NCBI GenBank assembly: GCA_903921455.1
Contig: CAIXPZ010000027.1
Span: forward strand, 1 to 27,009
Length of the DNA: 27,009 nt
Source: an uncultured Verrucomicrobia subdivision 3 bacterium
GTDB taxonomy: Bacteria; Verrucomicrobiota; Verrucomicrobiae; Limisphaerales; UBA11358
Direction of reading: 5' to 3'
Position numbers and translations under genes: made by a program. This document shows, piece by piece, positions 1 through 27,009 of the stretch (position 1 is the first letter of the stretch; every line of letters starts with the position of its first letter). Under the pieces are notes generated by a model. That model saw only the letters and a program-made list of their open reading frames with translations. It was not told where the DNA came from and did not search any database.

Positions 1-151
1 CAATCGCTCCGGTGATTCTGACAGCTTCCGGAATCAGCTTAAGTCTCTCTGCCTCGGTCTTAAACAACGAGCGGAGATAAGCGATCTGAGCAAGCTCTTC
101 GTCCAACTCTTGTCTGCGAGCCAGCAGAGTTGTCAGGTTCGTTGTGCTCAT
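1..151 (-). CDS. Small hypothetical protein, 3' part cut by window edge
   Basis: The frame opens at an ATG (positions 151-149) and is open for 50 codons to the left edge, so only the N terminus is visible. It begins MSTTNLTTLLARRQELDEEL and continues as charged helical sequence rich in Leu, Glu and Arg, which could form a coiled coil. No signal peptide or known motif is seen. It is the last visible gene of a run of tiny minus-strand genes and lies just downstream of a family-A hairpin repeat. I do not recognise the family. The main support is the position in the array and the uninterrupted frame. Confidence 0.5.
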   Translation of the reverse strand, partial: MSTTNLTTLLARRQELDEELAQIAYLRSLFKTEAERLKLIPEAVRITGAI

Positions 152-172
152 TCAGCTATCGGATAAACCGAG

Positions 173-215
173 CCACCGCCGACGCGCGACGATTGGTTCT
201 GGCGGATGATTGGAC
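173..215 (-). repeat. Family-A hairpin repeat, copy 1
   Basis: GC-rich element just downstream of the lipoprotein stop at 237. On the plus strand it carries an accgcc block, a gacgcgc core, and then the shared tail ending ggcggatgattggac. Four similar elements lie at 1458-1502, 1799-1842, 2345-2375 and 2632-2675, always between two small minus-strand genes. In this copy the inner ccgcc/ggcgg hairpin is degenerate. Confidence 0.65.
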
Positions 216-236
216 GATGGCTGCCTGAAAACAAAA

Positions 237-551
237 TCATTTTAATGCTCTAAGTTCATCGGCGGTCAAGGCTCTGACCTCCCAGCCGCCGTTTGTGTAT
301 CCGGCGATGGTGTCAATGACCGTCGCTCCTTGCCCGTGCAATGATTCTCGAAGCTCATCTATGCTCTTGAAAATCGGCTGTGTCTTGAGTGTAGCACTAC
401 TGCTAGCAAAGTTCGCAGCTTGGTAGCCCTGATGCCCAGCTCCATCAGTCACGACATACCAGCAACCGAAAGCATGGTTCATCGCTATTTCTTTGTGAGC
501 ACAACCCACAATTAAGACAAGGACCACAAAAAATATACAGCGAAATATCAT
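237..551 (-). CDS. Small predicted lipoprotein, unknown function
   Basis: 104 residues from the ATG at 551. A longer frame runs upstream, but it would translate the attC-like repeat, and the start at 551 gives a proper lipoprotein signal peptide: MIFRC, a hydrophobic stretch, then lipobox IVGC with the lipidated Cys near residue 17. The mature part (about 85 residues) has no motif I recognise; the C terminus GGWEVRALTADELRAL looks like a short globular domain. The start lies 11 nt after the GTTAGGC end of the attC-like element at 563-670, as expected for an integron-type cassette. The product is probably exported and anchored in a membrane. Function unknown. Confidence 0.65.
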   Translation of the reverse strand: MIFRCIFFVVLVLIVGCAHKEIAMNHAFGCWYVVTDGAGHQGYQAANFASSSATLKTQPIFKSIDELRESLHGQGATVIDTIAGYTNGGWEVRALTADELRALK

Positions 552-562
552 GCGTGTAATCA

Positions 563-670
563 GCCTAACGTCCAAAATCCAGGCGCGCGGGACAAATAAC
601 GGTGAGCCGCGAAACCGTAGCACGGTGGCAGCCAGTGCCAACCGGCATTGGCTCCGGTGATGTGTTAAGC
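563..670 (-). repeat. attC-like site (family B), copy 1
   Basis: 108-bp imperfect palindrome. Plus-strand ends are gcctaac (563-569) and gttaagc (664-670), which match the integron core consensus RYYYAAC/GTTRRRY and pair with each other. Inside are stem accgt-agc-acggt and stem gccagtgcc-aacc-ggcattggc. The upstream gene's TAA stop lies inside the R'' core and the next gene starts 11 nt past R'. It aligns without gaps over 108 positions with the element at 3206-3313, with about 82 identical positions by manual count. Confidence 0.65.
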
Positions 671-1060
671 AGCTGTCTCATCAATCTGCTCCAAATTCTG
701 TAAAATGTTGTCAACCTGCTCGGTCTCAATTTTCGCGTTTGCTTCCGCGCAACTATATCGCACTGACAACTTACAACCCAGACATGATAAGTGCCAACTC
801 CTGCGGAAAGTGCCTTTATAAACTGTGCCTGCATAATACTTGCCGACAAGCTTGCCTCTAAAATCTTGGCCGACGCCCGCTCCGTCATAAACTGCAGCCG
901 AAGACATGACCTGCAACATACCGACGCCGCTAGGTAAATAGAGTGTGACCATGCCAGGGTAATTGGGCATTGCAATCCAGCCATCAGGAAGCTGAACTTG
1001 CCAACGATCTGTCCTGAACGATTGCGGCATAACGCAAATTAGCTTAGGCATCCGGCTCAT
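665..1060 (-). CDS. Small hypothetical protein ending in attC-like site
   Basis: 131 residues from the ATG at 1060, which has a plausible Shine-Dalgarno (ggag, 8 nt upstream on the minus strand). No signal peptide or membrane segment is evident. The N-terminal half contains WQVQLPDGWIAMPNYPG and the middle a Cys-containing stretch (SCLGCKLSVRYSC); the C terminus is acidic and helical (QVDNILQNLEQIDETAA). The stop codon is inside the R'' core of the 108-bp repeat, a hallmark of integron cassettes. Its first 17 bp overlap the end of the next upstream gene (1044-1430), so these two have no repeat between them. A start at the next Met (1051) is possible. Family not recognised. Confidence 0.6.
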   Translation of the reverse strand: MSRMPKLICVMPQSFRTDRWQVQLPDGWIAMPNYPGMVTLYLPSGVGMLQVMSSAAVYDGAGVGQDFRGKLVGKYYAGTVYKGTFRRSWHLSCLGCKLSVRYSCAEANAKIETEQVDNILQNLEQIDETAA

Positions 1061-1430
1061 GTCTAAATCTCCGTGACCGACTCCAAACCATCAAACCCAA
1101 AAGTGTGACATTGGACAACATCTCTGGTGCTTCTCTCCAAATCACGTGCATCGCTTTGGCTGGATGAACAAAACAATAAATAGGGATGCCTGTGAATCCA
1201 AGTATCGCCATCACCCAAAGATAAATCAGTGTCAGAGAAACTGCTCGCTCGCGCTCCAATAATATACCGATGCCAAGTGGCAACGTCAGAACTGATATAA
1301 GGCGTGAAACAATCAGAACTGTATCTTGCACTGAGTTGGCATAATGAAAGAGCCAAGTGACTTGGAGATAACCTAACAATGCAAATGCGCCAGCGACGAA
1401 CAACTGAATCTCTCGTGGTGATATTTTCAT
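1044..1430 (-). CDS. Small multi-pass membrane protein, unknown
   Basis: 128 residues from the ATG at 1430. The longer frame to 1505 reads through a family-A repeat and is rejected. The protein has about four hydrophobic segments: around residues 10-30 (LFVAGAFALLGYLQVTWLF), 38-58, 65-88 (LTLIYLWVMAILGFTGIPIY) and 103-118, and then a basic tail (SRSRRFRHEPDA). This looks like an inner-membrane protein with a positively charged cytoplasmic C terminus. The stop overlaps the start of the next gene (665-1060) by 17 bp, suggesting translational coupling. No enzymatic motif is visible and I do not recognise the family. Confidence 0.6.
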   Translation of the reverse strand: MKISPREIQLFVAGAFALLGYLQVTWLFHYANSVQDTVLIVSRLISVLTLPLGIGILLERERAVSLTLIYLWVMAILGFTGIPIYCFVHPAKAMHVIWREAPEMLSNVTLLGLMVWSRSRRFRHEPDA

Positions 1431-1457
1431 AATGCTAGGATGCAACGAAAAAAACTG

Positions 1458-1502
1458 ACCCCCCGCCGACGCACGGCGGTTGGTTTTGGTGGGTGGTTGG
1501 AC
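1458..1502 (-). repeat. Family-A hairpin repeat, copy 2
   Basis: Lies between the stop of the gene at 1513 and the start at 1430. The plus strand holds a run of C followed by a gccg-acgca-cggc hairpin and the shared tail ggttggttttggtgggtggttggac. The outer C-rich and G-rich arms can also pair. A possible GTT-containing end (gttgcat on the minus strand) does not match GTTRRRY, so it is not called attC. Confidence 0.7.
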
Positions 1503-1512
1503 CACTGGTATC

Positions 1513-1767
1513 TCATTTCATCACCCCAACTTTCTTGCTCGCTGCAATCAGCGCAAGCTCATCTGGGTCTGATGGTATCGAAGCAAGTGCTTGGCGAACC
1601 AAATCAACGTGTCCCTTGTCCAACTCGCTGGCAGCACCAGCCGCCAGTCCGCCAACCATCTTGTGATAATAAAAATCGCCAATGGTCATCGAAAGCATCC
1701 GACATCCCAAAGCAATCAGCACAACAAGCAGCAAGATATTTACAGCGAGTGAGATGCGGAATTTCAT
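1513..1767 (-). CDS. Small membrane-anchored or exported protein
   Basis: 84 residues from the ATG at 1767. A longer frame upstream only translates the family-A repeat. MKFRISLAVN is followed by a strongly hydrophobic segment (ILLLVVLIALGC), which could be a signal anchor or an imperfect lipobox. The rest is a short soluble domain (HKMVGGLAAGAASELDKGHV and then LVRQALASIPSDPDELALIA), helical and reminiscent of a single TPR-like hairpin. Bounded by family-A repeats on both sides. Function unknown; it may be distantly related to the neighbouring 154-residue protein, which has the same N-terminal anchor plus helical layout. Confidence 0.6.
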   Translation of the reverse strand: MKFRISLAVNILLLVVLIALGCRMLSMTIGDFYYHKMVGGLAAGAASELDKGHVDLVRQALASIPSDPDELALIAASKKVGVMK

Positions 1768-1798
1768 AAATGCTCGAAGTGGACTAAAAAGAAGCAGA

Positions 1799-1842
1799 GC
1801 CCCCGCCGGCTTGCGGCGGTTGGCTTTGACGGTTGTTTGGGC
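1799..1842 (-). repeat. Family-A hairpin repeat, copy 3
   Basis: Plus strand: C-run, ccgccggcttgcggcgg hairpin, then ttggctttgacggttgtttgggc. It sits 5 bp downstream of the stop of the gene at 1847-2311 and 31 bp before the next start at 1767. Same order of parts as the other family-A copies. Confidence 0.7.
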
Positions 1843-1846
1843 GGCA

Positions 1847-2311
1847 TCATCGTGACAGTGAATTAAAAGCCCTTGCCACTCCGGCATCCACATTGGGATT
1901 GCTGCTCGTGTGCGGAAACTGCTCCCGATACTGCTTCGCACCGGCCACCACCTTATCCATCGCTGCCGTATGCGGCATCATATCGTAGCCAACCAAAGCC
2001 CCATCCAGTCGGGTCTCCAGCAAACGGATGACCTCGTTTGTCCGCCCGGCCCGAAGATCCTGCAGCATCCTGACCGACATCGCGATGTCGATGGTCTTCT
2101 GCTCGGCGTGCATCTCCGAAACCAAATCCGAAATCTGGCTGACCAAATTCGTCTGGCCGCTTTGGATGAGCGGAATCACCAGCCGCTCGTATTTGCCAAG
2201 GTTGCCCTGATCTGCTGTTGCGGGTGCCGGCTGGGCTGCCGACTGGCGGCGCACGCTGACAAAAACTACGACTCCGACAATCACGAACAGAATGATGCGT
2301 AAAGTTTTCAT
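1847..2311 (-). CDS. Membrane-anchored helical protein, unknown
   Basis: 154 residues from the ATG at 2311 (MKTLRIILFVIVGVVVFVSV). The start at 2389 is rejected because its first 26 residues are repeat translation. Residues about 5-21 form one membrane anchor, followed by an Ala/Pro linker (SAAQPAPATADQG) and a soluble domain of amphipathic helices with motifs such as LIQSGQTNLVSQISDL and LRAGRTNEVIRLLETRLDG. The spacing resembles tetratricopeptide-like hairpins, but no clear TPR signature is present. The C terminus (SSNPNVDAGVARAFNSLSR) is polar. It is probably exposed to the periplasm. Function unknown; part of the small-gene array. Confidence 0.65.
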   Translation of the reverse strand: MKTLRIILFVIVGVVVFVSVRRQSAAQPAPATADQGNLGKYERLVIPLIQSGQTNLVSQISDLVSEMHAEQKTIDIAMSVRMLQDLRAGRTNEVIRLLETRLDGALVGYDMMPHTAAMDKVVAGAKQYREQFPHTSSNPNVDAGVARAFNSLSR

Positions 2312-2344
2312 AATCGCTCGATGCCGCCCAGCGCCGCCAGCGTT

Positions 2345-2375
2345 GCTCCCGCCAACTTGCCGCGGATGGTTGGAC
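2345..2375 (-). repeat. Family-A repeat, copy 4 (divergent)
   Basis: Plus strand gctcccgccaacttgccgcggatggttggac. It keeps the conserved right end (cggatggttggac) and the cccgcc block, but the core has diverged. A second GC-rich palindromic stretch (gccgcccagcgccgccagc, 2323-2341) adjoins it on the left. It sits between the genes at 2386-2619 and 1847-2311. Confidence 0.5.
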
Positions 2376-2385
2376 GACTGGTAAA

Positions 2386-2619
2386 TCATCGCTCAAGCTT
2401 CCTAAAAATCCAACCAAGCCAATGTGTCACTGAATCTTCATGGCGACGAACGATGCGATACAAGCCGATCAGCAAAACAACCTGACAGGCATATCCAAGA
2501 ACCATCCAATTTGTCCACGGCTCGGACAAAGCAGCGGCGTTTAAGCCGACCAAACAACCGACAACTAACTGCCAGATCATCAGCCTGGCAAACCATAGAT
2601 GCTGTCGCTCTCTAGTCAT
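2386..2619 (-). CDS. Small two-pass membrane protein
   Basis: 77 residues from the ATG at 2619, 12 bp after the family-A repeat. Two hydrophobic segments are visible: about residues 9-31 (WFARLMIWQLVVGCLVGLNA) and 38-58 (WMVLGYACQVVLLIGLYRIV), followed by a basic/aromatic tail (RRHEDSVTHWLGWIFRKLER). Probably an inner-membrane protein with cytoplasmic termini. No family recognised. The support is the clean hydrophobicity pattern and the regular position between two repeats. Confidence 0.6.
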   Translation of the reverse strand: MTRERQHLWFARLMIWQLVVGCLVGLNAAALSEPWTNWMVLGYACQVVLLIGLYRIVRRHEDSVTHWLGWIFRKLER

Positions 2620-2631
2620 AAGGTGTTCTTC

Positions 2632-2675
2632 ACCCCCGCCTACGCGCGGCGGTTGGTTTTGGCGGATGATTAAGC
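2632..2675 (-). repeat. Family-A hairpin repeat, copy 5
   Basis: The best-formed copy: plus strand C-run, ccgcc-tacgcgc-ggcgg hairpin (2636-2652), then ttggttttggcggatgattaagc. It lies between the stop at 2692 and the next start at 2619. Confidence 0.7.
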
Positions 2676-2691
2676 ATAAAAAAATTCATCG

Positions 2692-2874
2692 CTAAAAATA
2701 GATTTGGTATATCGCAAAGCCCATGGCGATGAGGCCCAAGACCACCAGCAGCAATGCCATGACATTTGTCCATAATTGCTCCCTGCGCCTGTCCTGCTTT
2801 GGCTTTCGTCCAAACGTCGCACCCATGGCATCCAGCGCAGCTTGCAGAACTGAAAATATGCCGAATGGATTCAT
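2692..2874 (-). CDS. Small single-pass membrane protein
   Basis: 60 residues from the ATG at 2874 (MNPFGIFSVLQAALDAMG). A TTG two codons upstream is less likely. The sequence is an N-terminal amphipathic helix, a basic middle (GRKPKQDRRREQLW) and one C-terminal membrane segment (VMALLLVVLGLIAMGFAIYQIYF). This tail-anchored layout fits a small inner-membrane protein. No Shine-Dalgarno is obvious. Flanked by a family-A repeat downstream and a truncated family-B repeat upstream. Function unknown. Confidence 0.55.
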   Translation of the reverse strand: MNPFGIFSVLQAALDAMGATFGRKPKQDRRREQLWTNVMALLLVVLGLIAMGFAIYQIYF

Positions 2875-2911
2875 GAACAATAACGAGGAAATTTTGGAAA
2901 TACTTTTCTCA

Positions 2912-2950
2912 CGGCATTGGCTCCGGTGAATGGGTAGGCGGCTGTTTCAT
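2912..2950 (-). repeat. Truncated attC-like (family B) fragment
   Basis: The plus-strand run cggcattggctccggtga followed by atgggtaggcggctgtttcat matches the right half of the 563-670 element and about 10 bp beyond it. The left half, including the R' core and the first stem arm, is missing; AT-rich sequence replaces it. Confidence 0.6.
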
Positions 2951-2965
2951 ATATAATCAAAACTG

Positions 2966-3193
2966 CTAAAGGCTCCTAAATATCTCCCACTGGAGACGGC
3001 GACGATCTTTTATCAGCGAGTCAATGTCCCTATCTTCACCAGGAATCTGCGCGCAATCCGCAGCGCGCAATGCATCAAGAATCTCCAACTCATCTAACGT
3101 GCGCCGCGCCGCCTTGCTAAAAATATGCAACTCGTCCAGCGGTTGCTTCCGCAGCTCAAACCATCTGGCAAAAAGCTCGTCTCTAGTTTGCAT
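2966..3193 (-). CDS. Small soluble helical protein, unknown
   Basis: 75 residues from the ATG at 3193 (MQTRDELFARWFELRKQPLD), 12 nt after the GTTAGAC end of the attC-like site at 3206-3313. The longer frame to 3229 begins inside that site, so the inner start is preferred. It is highly charged and predicted helical throughout, without signal peptide or membrane segment (ELHIFSKAARRTLDELEILD and DIDSLIKDRRRLQWEIFRSL). This composition would suit a small DNA-binding or protein-interaction module, but no signature supports either. Function unknown. Confidence 0.55.
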   Translation of the reverse strand: MQTRDELFARWFELRKQPLDELHIFSKAARRTLDELEILDALRAADCAQIPGEDRDIDSLIKDRRRLQWEIFRSL

Positions 3194-3205
3194 ACGTGCA
3201 AAGTC

Positions 3206-3313
3206 GTCTAACGTCCAGAGTTCAGGCACGCGGGACCAATGGACTTGAAACGCGAACCCGTAGCAAGGTGGCAGTCAGCGCCAACCGGCATTGACTCCGT
3301 GGAATGGTTTAAA
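3206..3313 (-). repeat. attC-like site (family B), copy 2
   Basis: 108 bp, aligned end to end with 563-670. The left end gtctaac (3206-3212) is a good core; the right end gtttaaa (3307-3313) is degenerate. The inner stem gtcagcgcc-aacc-ggcattgac keeps pairing through a compensatory change relative to copy 1 (c/g to t/a). It separates the genes at 2966-3193 and 3321-3665; the latter stops 8 bp from the element. Confidence 0.65.
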
Positions 3314-3320
3314 TTACTCA

Positions 3321-3665
3321 TCAATGCGTCGTCCTGTGGCTTGAAAACCAATCTATTGCCTTGCCATCCTTTACCCTCACTTGAAAGCCAGAAAAAACAA
3401 AAATTTCTTTCGTGCCTGGCGGCGCGTCTGGCAAATTGAAATAAACAATCTCATCGACGTTGGTAAAAGCACCCTCAAACTTCGGGTGTTTTTCGTCGTA
3501 TACCGGCTGTCCGAAGCTCTGAATAATTGCTGTGACAGGCGTGCCAGGCAGGACAAACTTCCGAACATCATCCTCCGAGTAAAGCTGCCACGAAGCTCGC
3601 GTCTGTCGCGAACATGAAGTCGCAGCAAGTAGTGTCAAAAACATGATGATGACGTACTGCTTCAT
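3321..3665 (-). CDS. Small predicted lipoprotein, SmpA/BamE-like features
   Basis: 114 residues from the ATG at 3665. The upstream extension to 3782 is rejected because it translates an inverted-repeat spacer. The signal peptide MKQYVIIMFLTLLAATSC is followed by a Ser/Arg-rich start of the mature protein; Cys18 would be lipidated. The mature domain includes LPGTPVTAIIQSFGQPVYDE and an alternating strand region (EIVYFNLPDAPPGTKEIFVF and FQVRVKDGKAIDW). The order of a G-x-P turn, helix, FGxP and strands is similar to small SmpA/OmlA (BamE)-type lipoproteins, but this is only a resemblance. Probably membrane-attached. Exact role unknown. Confidence 0.6.
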   Translation of the reverse strand: MKQYVIIMFLTLLAATSCSRQTRASWQLYSEDDVRKFVLPGTPVTAIIQSFGQPVYDEKHPKFEGAFTNVDEIVYFNLPDAPPGTKEIFVFSGFQVRVKDGKAIDWFSSHRTTH

Positions 3666-3668
3666 ACT

Positions 3669-3787
3669 GCTAACGAATATAATCTGAGCCCATGCCTTCC
3701 TCGTGGCGGAAACCGTATCAGCGGAACTGGAGACGCCATTCCGCGTTGCCTGCTGCGATTTAGTAGATGGCAGATGGCTCATAGCAC
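3669..3787 (-). repeat. Inverted-repeat spacer, possible degenerate attC
   Basis: Arms gagcccatgcc (3686-3696) and ggcagatggctc (3769-3780) can pair, and an outer tagc/gcta pair (gctaac at 3669-3674, tagcac near 3782) extends the structure. It sits between the genes at 3793-4047 and 3321-3665, where the other spacers have repeats. Sequence is unrelated to family A or B, and only one end resembles a GTTAG core. Confidence 0.4.
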
Positions 3788-3792
3788 TAACC

Positions 3793-4047
3793 TCATTCGG
3801 ACAACTTGGGCGGCTTGCGTAATGACCGAGCCCAAAAGAATAAACCTAGCGCCCCACAGAGTAGGCACGGCAGCCAACATCGCCAACTGATGTCACTCGT
3901 TACCTCTCCAGCGATCCAATTGCCATTATCGGACGAACCGCTTCCGAAATTCTGCCAGTTTGAAAAAGCAGTCCACGCAATAACAAGCACCAACGATGAT
4001 AAACAAACCAACGAGATGCCAAGCCTTCGTTGTGCTGTAATGCTCAT
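3793..4047 (-). CDS. Small two-pass membrane protein
   Basis: 84 residues from the ATG at 4047 (MSITAQRRLGISLVCLSSLV). A longer frame to 4128 has an unlikely N terminus and is not used. There are two hydrophobic segments: residues about 10-30 (GISLVCLSSLVLVIAWTAF) and about 56-74 (CWLPCLLCGALGLFFWARSL), separated by a Gly/Ser/Asn-rich loop, with a basic C terminus (RKPPKLSE). A GTTAGAC-type core (minus strand, 4095-4089) lies 41 nt upstream. It is the right-most gene of the small-gene array and hence the first in the direction of transcription. Function unknown. Confidence 0.55.
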   Translation of the reverse strand: MSITAQRRLGISLVCLSSLVLVIAWTAFSNWQNFGSGSSDNGNWIAGEVTSDISWRCWLPCLLCGALGLFFWARSLRKPPKLSE

Positions 4048-4095
4048 AAACGCGATGCCGTCAAACAATGAGTCGATCGCGTTATACGGTCTAAC

Positions 4096-4413: not shown

Positions 4414-5853
4414 ATGAAGCGCTGGAATATTCTTATGGGGCTGCAATTCATTATTGGAGCATTAATCTGCGGTATTTTCAGCGGTTGTAATCAAAAGCAA
4501 GCGGCAGCCCCATCCGAGTCCGTAAAAACGGGCCAAGCCGCACCCCCCGTCAACCGGCTTCAGTGGAATCTCAACACGACGGTGGATATCTATCGAAGAG
4601 GCAACTCCGTAAATAGTGCGTGGGATCAATACGCGACGAATGCTTTGATCGAATTTGCCAGGGCTCGCGCAAAGGCAATTCCGCGCGGTGAAAACTTTAC
4701 CAAGATAATCGCCACCAATTCATTATTGGCCGTCACCGCTGGCTGTAATGACCCGCTGGTGAAATACCTTTATGTGAGATGTTATCTCGACAATTCGGCG
4801 GAAACGGAAGCTTTGACCGCCGCATGGATTCAAGATGCGACCGCGATGAACCAGAGCACCTACCCGCCGTTAAGAAAGTTCTACGCCGCATTTCGGGCGA
4901 TGAAACAATACCAGTGGGCTAATAATTATCCTGCCAATCATCCCCCGGAGGTCGCCGCCATCAACCGGCAGATGTTGGACAATTATCAGGCATTGTTGGC
5001 GGATAGCACTGTGCCAGTCGGTGAGATCTATGATGCCACCCATGAGTTTCTAGCGATATGGGAAGGCAGCGCACAAATGTATCAAACCTATTACAATTGT
5101 ATCGAACCTATATTGTTCAATAACTGGCCGGCGGCATCGGAGAGTTGGCTGATCAAAGGGGAAGCTTATTTACAGATGGGTTGGCAGGCTCGTGGCACCG
5201 GGTTTGCCAACGAGGTCGCGCAAGACAAGTGGAAGCAGTTTAAGGACAAGCTTGCTATTGCTGAAACTGCAGCGAAGCAGGCTTGGGCATTGGATCCCAG
5301 CAATGCTGCGGTCGCCACTTTAATGATCAAACTGGATGTAGGGCTCCAAAGAGACCGGGCCGACATGGAAATGTGGTTCAAGCGGGTGATGGATCTGACG
5401 CCGGACAATTACGACGCCTGCAAATGCAAACTGAATTACTTGTATCCGCAATGGTATGGTTCGCGAGCTGATATGCTGGCCTTTGGGAGAGTGTGTGTGG
5501 CCAATACCAACTGGGGCGGATACGTGCCGATTATCTTGGTGGATGCCCATTCTGATTATAACCGGATCGCCACGACTAACGAAGTGGTCCGCCTGGCATA
5601 CTGGAAAAAGCCGGATGTGTGGCCTGACCTCAAATCTAGTTACGAACGTTTTTTTCAATTGAATCCGGATCAGACCGAAATCTACAAGAACTATGCCTGG
5701 TATGCGTATCAAGCCGGTCAGTGGGCTGAATTTCTGAGGATCGCTGAAAAGGTGAGACCAGAAGACTACGATTTTTTTGGTGATAAAGCCGCCTTCCCCC
5801 AGATGTTGAAAAAAGCAAAAGCGAACGTTGCTGAGAGTGGCACGAATAAGTGA
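4414..5853 (+). CDS. DUF4034-like lipoprotein
   Basis: 479 residues. The N terminus is a lipoprotein signal peptide (MKRWNILMGLQFIIGALICG and then FSGC; Cys25 lipidated), followed by a low-complexity Ala/Pro/Ser linker. The middle and C-terminal parts contain repeated helical elements, with a recognisable block from about residue 240 to 350: WLIKGEAYLQMGWQARGTG, then a TPR-like AETAAKQAWALDPSNAAVAT, then MWFKRVMDLTPDNYDACKCK and LNYLYPQWYGS. This succession is what I remember of the DUF4034 family of bacterial secreted proteins; its function is unknown. The helical hairpins suggest a protein-binding scaffold at the outer membrane. The gene stands alone between repeat-rich spacers. Base composition is visibly less GC-rich than the oxidase operon to its right. 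The ATG at 4414 is chosen because an upstream ATG (4406) stops at once. Confidence 0.8.
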   Translation: MKRWNILMGLQFIIGALICGIFSGCNQKQAAAPSESVKTGQAAPPVNRLQWNLNTTVDIYRRGNSVNSAWDQYATNALIEFARARAKAIPRGENFTKIIATNSLLAVTAGCNDPLVKYLYVRCYLDNSAETEALTAAWIQDATAMNQSTYPPLRKFYAAFRAMKQYQWANNYPANHPPEVAAINRQMLDNYQALLADSTVPVGEIYDATHEFLAIWEGSAQMYQTYYNCIEPILFNNWPAASESWLIKGEAYLQMGWQARGTGFANEVAQDKWKQFKDKLAIAETAAKQAWALDPSNAAVATLMIKLDVGLQRDRADMEMWFKRVMDLTPDNYDACKCKLNYLYPQWYGSRADMLAFGRVCVANTNWGGYVPIILVDAHSDYNRIATTNEVVRLAYWKKPDVWPDLKSSYERFFQLNPDQTEIYKNYAWYAYQAGQWAEFLRIAEKVRPEDYDFFGDKAAFPQMLKKAKANVAESGTNK

Positions 5854-23476: not shown

Positions 23477-24802
23477 ATGAAATCAAAATCTCTAAAGTCC
23501 CCCGGCTCGTTGGTCGTTCGCGGGCGCAACTTCTACGCCTTCTGGCGCGTCAACGGTAAAGCCATCAGCAAGGCGCTTCGCGATGCTAACGGCGCGGCAA
23601 TCACGACAAGGCCGGAAGCCGAGAAAGCAAAGGCGCGGCTAATGGAGATCGTTAGCAAGCAAAACGAGGTTGAATCCCTACGCTCTATTCAACACGCGAT
23701 TGATGACAAGCAAACTGAGATTGACCGTTTAAAGGACGAGCAAAATCCCCCGCTGGCATTAGCGCAAGCGTGGGCAGCTTTCCTGCGGTCAACCGAGCGG
23801 CACGATTGCGGCAAATCATCACTGGTGACGTATGAGGGCATCTGGTCTAAATTCAAGACTTGGGCGGAGCGGGAACACCCGGAAGCCGTCATGCTCCGCG
23901 ACATCAGCGGCGACATCGCCAAGAGCTACTTGGAAAGCATGAATCACGGCAAGGTTGCCCCGAAAACTTTTAATTCCCACCTCAATTTTTTGAAGTATTT
24001 ATTTCGCGTCTTGGCGACGGAAGGACGATTGACGGAGAATGTCTGGAAGAAAGCCAAGCTAAAGGCGAACATCGGCCTTTCACGGCGCGAGTTGACCATC
24101 GAGGAATTAAAGAAAGTTTGCGATGCGGCGAAGGGCGAAATGAAGTTAGCTTTTGCCATCGGCCTTTACACCGGCATGAGACTGGGCGACGTGGCCACGT
24201 TAAAATGGGGCGAAGTGGATTTGAAGCGTCATCAAATCCGGCGGATTCCAAACAAGATTGCCCGCCGCTTGCCGCAAACCATCACCATCCCGATTCACCC
24301 CGCCCTATCCGCGATGCTGACGGAAATCCCCATCAACGAGCGCGACCACGTTTATGTCCTGCCGCAATGGGCGGATACCTATCGAAACAAGTCGCGCTCA
24401 AAGCTAACAGAGCAAATTCAGAAGCATTTCGAGGACTGCGGCATAAAAACAACGGAAGCCCGCGAAGTCGGCACACGGGCGCAAGTCGTGGTCGGCTTTC
24501 ATTCGCTCCGGCATACGTTTGTATCGCTTTGTCGCGAGAGCAACGCCCCGTTAGCCGTGGTTGAGAATATTGTCGGCCATCACTCCGCCAGCCTGACGCG
24601 ACACTATACGCACATCAGCGAACAGGCTTCGACAGACGCCGTAGCCTTGCTGCCATCATTGAACGGTAGCGACGCGCCCCTCGTTCCGACTGGTTCTGCT
24701 CGCGATGAAATGCTCCGCGAAATCATAGAAAGCATGACAACAAAAAATCTGCGCGAGACAAAACCACGGGCGCTAGCGATGCTGGCGAGCGCATTAAATT
24801 GA
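23477..24802 (+). CDS. Tyrosine recombinase (phage/element integrase)
   Basis: 441 residues, start ATG 23477 with an aaagga-type ribosome-binding site. N-terminal part: an AP2-like arm-binding stretch (GSLVVRGRNFYAFWRVNGKA), a coiled-coil segment (about 60-88) and a SAM-like core-binding domain (about 95-200). Catalytic domain: Arg235 (TGMRLGD), Lys260 (PNK), His342-x-x-Arg345 (HSLRH), His368 (GHHSAS) and the nucleophile Tyr377 (RHYTH). This is a complete active-site set. It lacks the extra helix typical of integron IntI, as far as I can see, so it is more likely an integrase of a phage-like or genomic-island element. Followed by three or four co-oriented genes of the same element. Confidence 0.93.
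   Translation: MKSKSLKSPGSLVVRGRNFYAFWRVNGKAISKALRDANGAAITTRPEAEKAKARLMEIVSKQNEVESLRSIQHAIDDKQTEIDRLKDEQNPPLALAQAWAAFLRSTERHDCGKSSLVTYEGIWSKFKTWAEREHPEAVMLRDISGDIAKSYLESMNHGKVAPKTFNSHLNFLKYLFRVLATEGRLTENVWKKAKLKANIGLSRRELTIEELKKVCDAAKGEMKLAFAIGLYTGMRLGDVATLKWGEVDLKRHQIRRIPNKIARRLPQTITIPIHPALSAMLTEIPINERDHVYVLPQWADTYRNKSRSKLTEQIQKHFEDCGIKTTEAREVGTRAQVVVGFHSLRHTFVSLCRESNAPLAVVENIVGHHSASLTRHYTHISEQASTDAVALLPSLNGSDAPLVPTGSARDEMLREIIESMTTKNLRETKPRALAMLASALN

Positions 24803-26377: not shown

Positions 26378-27009
<632 letters not shown>

Follow-up and report, generated by a model that had tools for sequence, protein, structure and literature searches.

What sets integrons apart is the hairpin attC site. 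As outlined in the account of site structure in PMC2727003, an attC site is 57–142 nt long, its R'' and L'' boxes pair with L' and R', recombination takes place at L'-R', and a C precedes R' in most of the sites reported. A cluster of attC sites lacking an integrase (CALIN) consists, in the definition given in PMC9024848, of at least two attC sites with no integrase. Integrons in Verrucomicrobiota have already been published, as stated in PMC8618304. The phylum Verrucomicrobiota alone would therefore not make an array of this kind new. Here we describe a candidate array of this kind in a 27,009-nucleotide stretch of DNA from an uncultured Verrucomicrobia subdivision 3 bacterium (contig CAIXPZ010000027.1), the whole of which is called the window below. 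Repeats of the repetitive extragenic palindrome (REP) and miniature inverted-repeat transposable element (MITE) type, which are short, partly palindromic and repeated only between genes, are the other systems that have to be considered.

Positions 1 to about 4,100 of the window hold 11 small genes, all on the minus strand and 10 of them complete, with junction elements of three kinds (A, B and C) between them. Nine of the ten gene-gene junctions span 72–127 bp, and the remaining pair of genes overlaps by 17 bases. We favour the reading that this segment is a cassette array of integron origin that lacks its integrase and has degenerate or variant sites, and we give it about an even chance; its main rival is a repeat family that has nothing to do with integrons. 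The cassette architecture proposed in a first-pass annotation of this DNA is supported by small genes on the same strand, repeats confined to the array, R' boxes ahead of two starts, three homologues that fit GTTAGRC and one gene counted in identical form on seven contigs. Under this reading, each small gene would probably have arrived as a cassette together with its downstream junction element, through an IntI acting from elsewhere or in the past; joining would have taken place at the R' heptamer (G^TTRRRY) that closely precedes the following start. The junction elements would now be of mixed quality: C would be an attC-like hairpin with a changed R', A1 and A2 would have kept R boxes without a stem, and B would have no clear R'. 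The repeats, their confinement and orientation, the R motifs and the folds described below are observed, whereas past movement by IntI, crossover at R' and the cause of the mixed quality are inferred.

Element A repeats at two junctions and ends in R-like heptamers

Element A is found twice on the minus strand, as A1 (552..684) between gene 665–1060 and gene 237–551 and as A2 (3194..3325) between gene 3321–3665 and gene 2966–3193; the genes flanking the two copies are mutually unrelated. The ungapped 108-bp alignment noticed earlier, with about 82 identical positions, was reproduced exactly: the cores at 563–670 and 3206–3313 are identical at 82 of 108 positions, and the local alignment score of A1 with A2 was 107 against 15.6 ± 2.0 for shuffled sequences, none of 300 scoring as high. 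Their length of 108 nt lies inside the attC range. A half copy, comprising only the 5' part of the element, lies at 2912..2953 (minus strand; nhmmer E 9.1e-5) between gene 2966–3193 and gene 2692–2874; its local alignment with A1 was equalled by 0 of 300 shuffles, and it was found also as a repeat family.

The array genes run along the minus strand, and the A sites are accordingly read there, with their R' ends at 563–569 and 3206–3212. R' matches the consensus GTTRRRY exactly in both copies (GTTAGGC at 569–563 in A1, GTTAGAC at 3212–3206 in A2), and each is preceded by C. The R''-like heptamer, compared with RYYYAAC, is GCTTAAC at 670–664 in A1 (7/7), TTTAAAC at 3313–3307 in A2 (5/7) and, by eye, GCCTACC in the half copy (6/7). 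The likeness of the ends to integron cores is complete for both R' boxes and for R'' of A1, and partial for R'' of A2. As had been claimed, gene 665–1060 has its TAA stop within the heptamer GCTTAAC; the distance from R' to the next ATG is 11 nt in A1 and 12 nt in A2.

Several properties of A weigh against the cassette-array reading. The similarity runs past both R boxes, from ATTGATGAG just ahead of R'' as far as the start codon (ATG) of the gene that follows, which is not predicted by crossover at R'. The repeated unit, of about 140 bp, therefore covers almost the entire junction from stop to start. A relation between A and C was undetectable, shuffles scoring as high in 16 of 300 cases for A1 and in 177 of 300 for A2 (nhmmer E 0.078), and C as a diverged copy of A was rejected because the similarity is not significant. 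The main rival holds that A and B have spread among the junctions of a small-gene cluster as ordinary repeats (REP- or MITE-like, or hairpins acting at the transcript level) and are not recombination sites, the R-like ends of A being partly chance. We consider it unlikely overall, though a serious alternative: repeats that span stop to start, not R'' to R', are in its favour, as is the abundance of R'-like heptamers, of which the minus strand of the window holds 27, whereas an exact R' at a fixed place in both A copies speaks against it.

Folding of element A

The claim that both 108-bp elements are attC sites was not upheld: folding of the minus strand gave no hairpin in which R''-L'' pairs with L'-R', and an R''-to-R' hairpin was absent from the folds of A1 and A2 on either strand. 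The results of this section count against the cassette-array reading as far as they concern the stem. The pairing probability of R'' with R' in A1 and A2 was ≤0.04 and ≤0.02 in two runs, and when other lengths were tried it reached at best 0.24 (A1) and 0.12 (A2). A stem score calculated inward from the R boxes gave z of -0.2 to 0.2 for A1 and 1.0–1.1 for A2. On the bottom strand of A1, 3 of 200 shuffles were as low in energy (with the core by itself, 9 of 200), but the fold consists of several small hairpins; for A2, 180 of 200 shuffles were as low.

For comparison, 16 control sites were used, namely attC sites from class 1 integrons together with attC-like sites found close to intI genes in Planctomycetota. 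An R-to-R stem was present in 16 of 16 (z 2.7–5.4), a pass rate that is biased because the controls had been chosen by the same stem score. Of 22 annotated class 1 cassette ends, a scan with this score recovered 16 (tallied by eye, not counting one possible cassette that is cut off); one of the six misses adjoins an insertion sequence. In the energy fold of the bottom strand, the R boxes paired with a probability of about 0.5 or more in 12 of the 16 controls and of 0.06–0.26 in the other four; in the same fold, C reached 0.61 and A1 and A2 each 0.02. Taken by itself, the energy measure would still allow an attC; in combination with the stem score it speaks against A.

Permitting either letter at the 26 positions where A1 and A2 differ still gave no stem (z -0.2). 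A was thus probably non-palindromic already in its common form, and the data do not support decay from a palindromic ancestor shared by both copies. The scan of the window for such stems returned one match, at 1755–1618 (z 2.9), which lies inside gene 1513–1767 and was taken as chance. A as an RNA family was also rejected, since Rfam returned 0 matches at the gathering score.

The folds can be read in two other ways. Ordinary junction repeats would be consistent with an A that has no attC hairpin and with an A1 that folds beyond its shuffles (3/200) as several small hairpins. Alternatively, A1 and A2 may be sites of a cassette system that does without R-to-R hairpins, recognised in double-stranded form or through the inner hairpins by a tyrosine recombinase, IntI-like or not. 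This second possibility is improbable in our judgement. The non-palindromic sequence that A1 and A2 share at junctions whose genes are unrelated would suit it, and so would the R' boxes kept in both; one inner hairpin shows a compensating change of C-G to T-A between A1 and A2 (by eye), yet other changes break pairs. Only two full A copies are known, however, the sole recombinase found in the window is of phage type and lies 19 kb off beside a primase-polymerase, and no convincing relative of A was seen in the collections searched (by exact patterns, and with A1 DNA in planctomycetes). Extending the idea to A and B together, as working sites of an undescribed cassette system with R cores, no attC hairpin and a double-strand or differently folded route, is likewise improbable. 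We return to the integron-derived array, for which the fold of the next junction is more favourable.

Junction C folds like an attC site

Element C (3668..3795, minus strand) occupies the junction between gene 3793–4047 and gene 3321–3665 and forms a single hairpin closed by R'. Its R', GTTAGCA at 3674–3668, is degenerate and departs from the GTTRRRY consensus. The bottom strand had a minimum free energy of -21.4, a value reached by 1 of 200 dinucleotide shuffles; the probability that R' closes the hairpin was 0.62, with 1 of 200 as high. On the coding strand, 12 of 200 shuffles were as low in energy and 2 of 200 as high in closing probability. Among the five junctions folded (C, A1, A2, B1 and B3), only C gave a significant R'-closing, attC-like hairpin, a result that counts against the ordinary-repeat explanation. 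The window holds 62 GTTAGNN/GTTRRRY sites, of which two were unbranched with a closing probability of at least 0.6: C and one with an energy of only -6.3. Two results lessen the support that C lends to the cassette-array reading, because five branched sites in the window exceed C in closing probability and C fails the simpler stem score (z 0.7–0.8). The low stem score is probably due to the unequal arms of C. We therefore regard C as the best attC candidate of the array and not as a proven attC site.

Element B and confinement of the repeats

A second family, B, occupies five junctions on the minus strand: B0 (152..239; nhmmer E 5e-19), B1 (1431..1515; E 2.5e-22), B2 (1768..1849; E 9.2e-18), B3 (2312..2388; E 2.7e-10, with an internal alignment gap) and B4 (2620..2694; E 1.7e-17). 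The search profiles were built from A1, A2 and these five B copies, so that those copies match by construction. The B elements start with an R''-like heptamer, which is exact in B1 and B3 (GTCCAAC in both). At the other end, a possible R' was seen by eye in B1 (GTTGCAT, 6/7) and in B3 (GCTGGGC, 6/7). The B elements hold no clear R', and R'-closing in B1 and B3 was no better than in shuffles; both points count against the cassette-array reading. B as attC was rejected, as the folds of B1 and B3 are at shuffle level and the stem-loop has no covariation. This stem-loop is GC-rich, with 93% of cells paired and no change on both sides. A and B as a single family were rejected too: a motif after R'' was seen by eye, and the comparison of A1 and the half copy with B1 was not significant.

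Three B copies (1463–1479, 1803–1819 and 2636–2652) contain terminator-like stem-loops on the plus strand, antisense to the genes. In the whole scan, nine terminator-like sites were found against 5.2 ± 2.3 expected. The GC-rich stem-loop and the three terminator-like copies are both what ordinary junction repeats might show. On the other side, the profile search (nhmmer) found A and B copies within the window solely at junctions and on the minus strand, and this limitation to one array and one orientation is less readily explained by such repeats. The other 22.9 kb of the window gave no significant match to A or B, the best E values of 0.53 (A) and 0.81 (B) being at chance level.

Homologues and changing neighbours

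The protein search with gene 3321–3665 returned 16 proteins, including the window's own. Reading upstream in frame, extensions that cross the usual start of the family were present in three of the 15 non-window homologues: N-V-R-R-M in P0010, T-V-R-P-M in P0014 and Q-V-R-H-I in P0016. The window counterpart is F-V-S-S-M, encoded by GTT AGC AGT ATG. V-R-x in the three homologues is compatible with GTT AGR C, placed at the distance that GTTAGCA has in the window, and the residues before it look unrelated. Among the 29 fetched proteins, 48 of 3932 dipeptides were V-R. The occurrence of V-R-x after unrelated residues would fit what is predicted for a cassette joined at R', and the agreement of three homologues of a single gene with this R' at equal spacing counts against ordinary junction repeats. 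The V-R evidence was read from protein and not from DNA, which reduces its weight for the cassette-array reading.

The protein of gene 1847–2311 has an identical longer form of 180 amino acids, P0020 (1847–2389, reading through B3), which was counted on seven contigs, the longest of 34,218 bases. P0001 (665–1060) and P0004 (3321–3782), encoded at most about 1 kb to either side of the P0020 gene, were counted on one contig each, of 4,090 bases. If the 34-kb contig had the same neighbours, it should be listed for P0001 and P0004 as well; the P0020 gene therefore probably lies in other neighbourhoods, a view derived from contig counts, which show neighbours only indirectly and to that extent weaken the case for a cassette array. 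The contig of 4,090 bases is about the size of the array, as if the assembly had broken at the array edge.

Relatives of the array were sought in other collections. A was absent from plasmids (blastn), and exact patterns (two for A, one for B) found nothing in viral contigs. The exact A pattern matched once in 84,980 species genomes, in a planctomycete metagenome-assembled genome; the match is coding-like, has no repeat array and was taken as chance. A1 DNA searched against 392 planctomycete genomes gave one match with E 7e-4 in a predicted open frame, which is at chance level over 392 genomes. For two cassette protein families, 104 and 19 stretches of viral contigs fitted the pattern and 0 were confirmed. 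P0005, a member of the 3321–3665 family, was absent from plasmids, and no member of this family was found in the 392 planctomycetes in a search that had no positive control.

The integrase question

That no IntI is seen in the window, as stated in the first-pass annotation, agrees with the open reading frames scanned, 21 by Pfam and 7 by NCBIfam (5 of them non-array), which are not every open reading frame of the window. A tyrosine recombinase is encoded at 23477–24802; it scores 46.8 bits against an IntI cut-off of 265, matches phage integrases and lies near a primase-polymerase, and it was rejected as the missing IntI because it is far below the cut-off and of phage type. An IntI next to attI, the mark of a complete integron, was not found among the scanned frames of the window. 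The suggestion of a CALIN is in keeping with the lack of IntI among the scanned frames, and it fits less well with an attC-like fold in C only, of the five junctions folded.

The array may instead belong to a complete standard integron truncated at the contig end, whose intI and intact attC sites would be found on another contig or to the left of position 1. In line with this, the leftmost gene is cut by the window edge, and integrons are often broken up in draft assemblies, as noted in the part of PMC9024848 on assemblies. We hold this to be quite improbable: the usual orientation would place attI and intI to the right of 4100, where a tetratricopeptide repeat gene (4414–5853) and core-type genes follow, and only C of the five folded junctions is significantly attC-like. 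In the planctomycete comparison, IntI was over the cut-off in 72 of 392 genomes, and around the IntI of ten of these genomes, one to three strongly paired attC-like sites (both strands) were present in seven and none in three. Several planctomycete genomes (G249, G276, G218 and G308) contain more than one intI-like match, some with internal stops.

The segment 23477–27009 resembles an integrated element. It encodes the phage-type recombinase, a 321-amino-acid protein without family matches, a small helix-turn-helix-like protein below the Pfam cut-off and a bifunctional primase-polymerase (PF09250) cut by the window end. Its GC content is 0.49–0.54, and the integrase has four distant relatives in viral contigs. 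The window ends at 26912–27009 in a 9-bp tandem repeat (GACAGAGGT) inside the primase-polymerase frame, which suggests that the contig was broken at this repeat.

Genes of the array

From left to right on the minus strand, the array begins with a small gene that runs off the left window end (1..151, an open frame from an ATG at 151), followed by a cassette-like gene of 104 amino acids with a lipoprotein-like start (237..551; no family over the cut-off) and a cassette-like gene of 131 amino acids (665..1060) with two non-window homologues. The next gene (1044..1430; 128 amino acids, membrane-like by eye) shares the 17-base overlap with 665–1060, and this overlapping pair between B1 and A1 resembles a two-gene cassette. 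Then come a gene of 84 amino acids without a family (1513..1767), the cassette-like gene 1847..2311 (154 amino acids in its shorter form), and two genes judged membrane-like by eye, of 77 amino acids (2386..2619; no family over the cut-off) and 60 amino acids (2692..2874, with an ATG at 2874 and a longer TTG form at 2692–2880). A gene of 75 amino acids without a family (2966..3193), the cassette-like gene 3321..3665 (114 amino acids, lipoprotein-like by eye) and the rightmost gene (3793..4047; 84 amino acids, membrane-like by eye) complete the array.

A Pfam scan of ten array products, excluding the gene cut off at the left end, found none over the cut-off, and PADLOC gave no match for ten array proteins. 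Searches of PHROGs (four array proteins), NCBIfam (two) and PDB sequences (two families) returned nothing useful. The model of the gene 3321–3665 product had a mean predicted local distance difference test score of 73; its best matches include BamE and OsmE (E 0.07–0.35) and are not significant. The GC content of the array is 0.50–0.52, against 0.56–0.65 at 6–23 kb of the window, a difference in favour of the cassette-array reading. It is likewise 0.50–0.52 at 4–6 kb, so low GC is not specific to the array, which weakens this point. A GTTAGAC heptamer lies at 4089–4095, 41 nt ahead of the start of the rightmost gene, with a weak R'-closing fold upstream (P 0.19); it could be a former entry point of the array, or chance.

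Comparison with known systems

If the reading of an integron-derived array is right, a cassette-like array whose junction repeats are mostly not attC-like would be a useful record of site loss after the integrase is gone; alternatively, the array could be a sign that cassette exchange works without the standard hairpin. Arrays of this type could escape search tools that depend on the attC fold.

The array shares with REP- and MITE-type repeats their occurrence between genes. Unlike them, its repeats within the window keep to one array and one orientation, and the ends of family A are recombination-core-like. With the class 1 attC sites and the attC-like controls of Planctomycetota, A has in common the consensus of the R' heptamer, that of R'' (fully in A1, at 5 of 7 positions in A2) and a length within the attC range; it differs in the stem, which all of those controls, picked by the same score, possess, the stem scores of A1 (z -0.2) and A2 (z 1.1) lying below theirs. 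With an integron cassette array or a CALIN, the locus shares small genes of unknown function on one strand, junctions that carry R''- and R'-like heptamers, a stop inside R'' (in A1), starts just past R' and the lack of any integrase found alongside. The locus departs from such arrays in that only C, of C, A1, A2, B1 and B3, folds significantly as attC, and in having a second repeat family, B, that lacks a clear R'.

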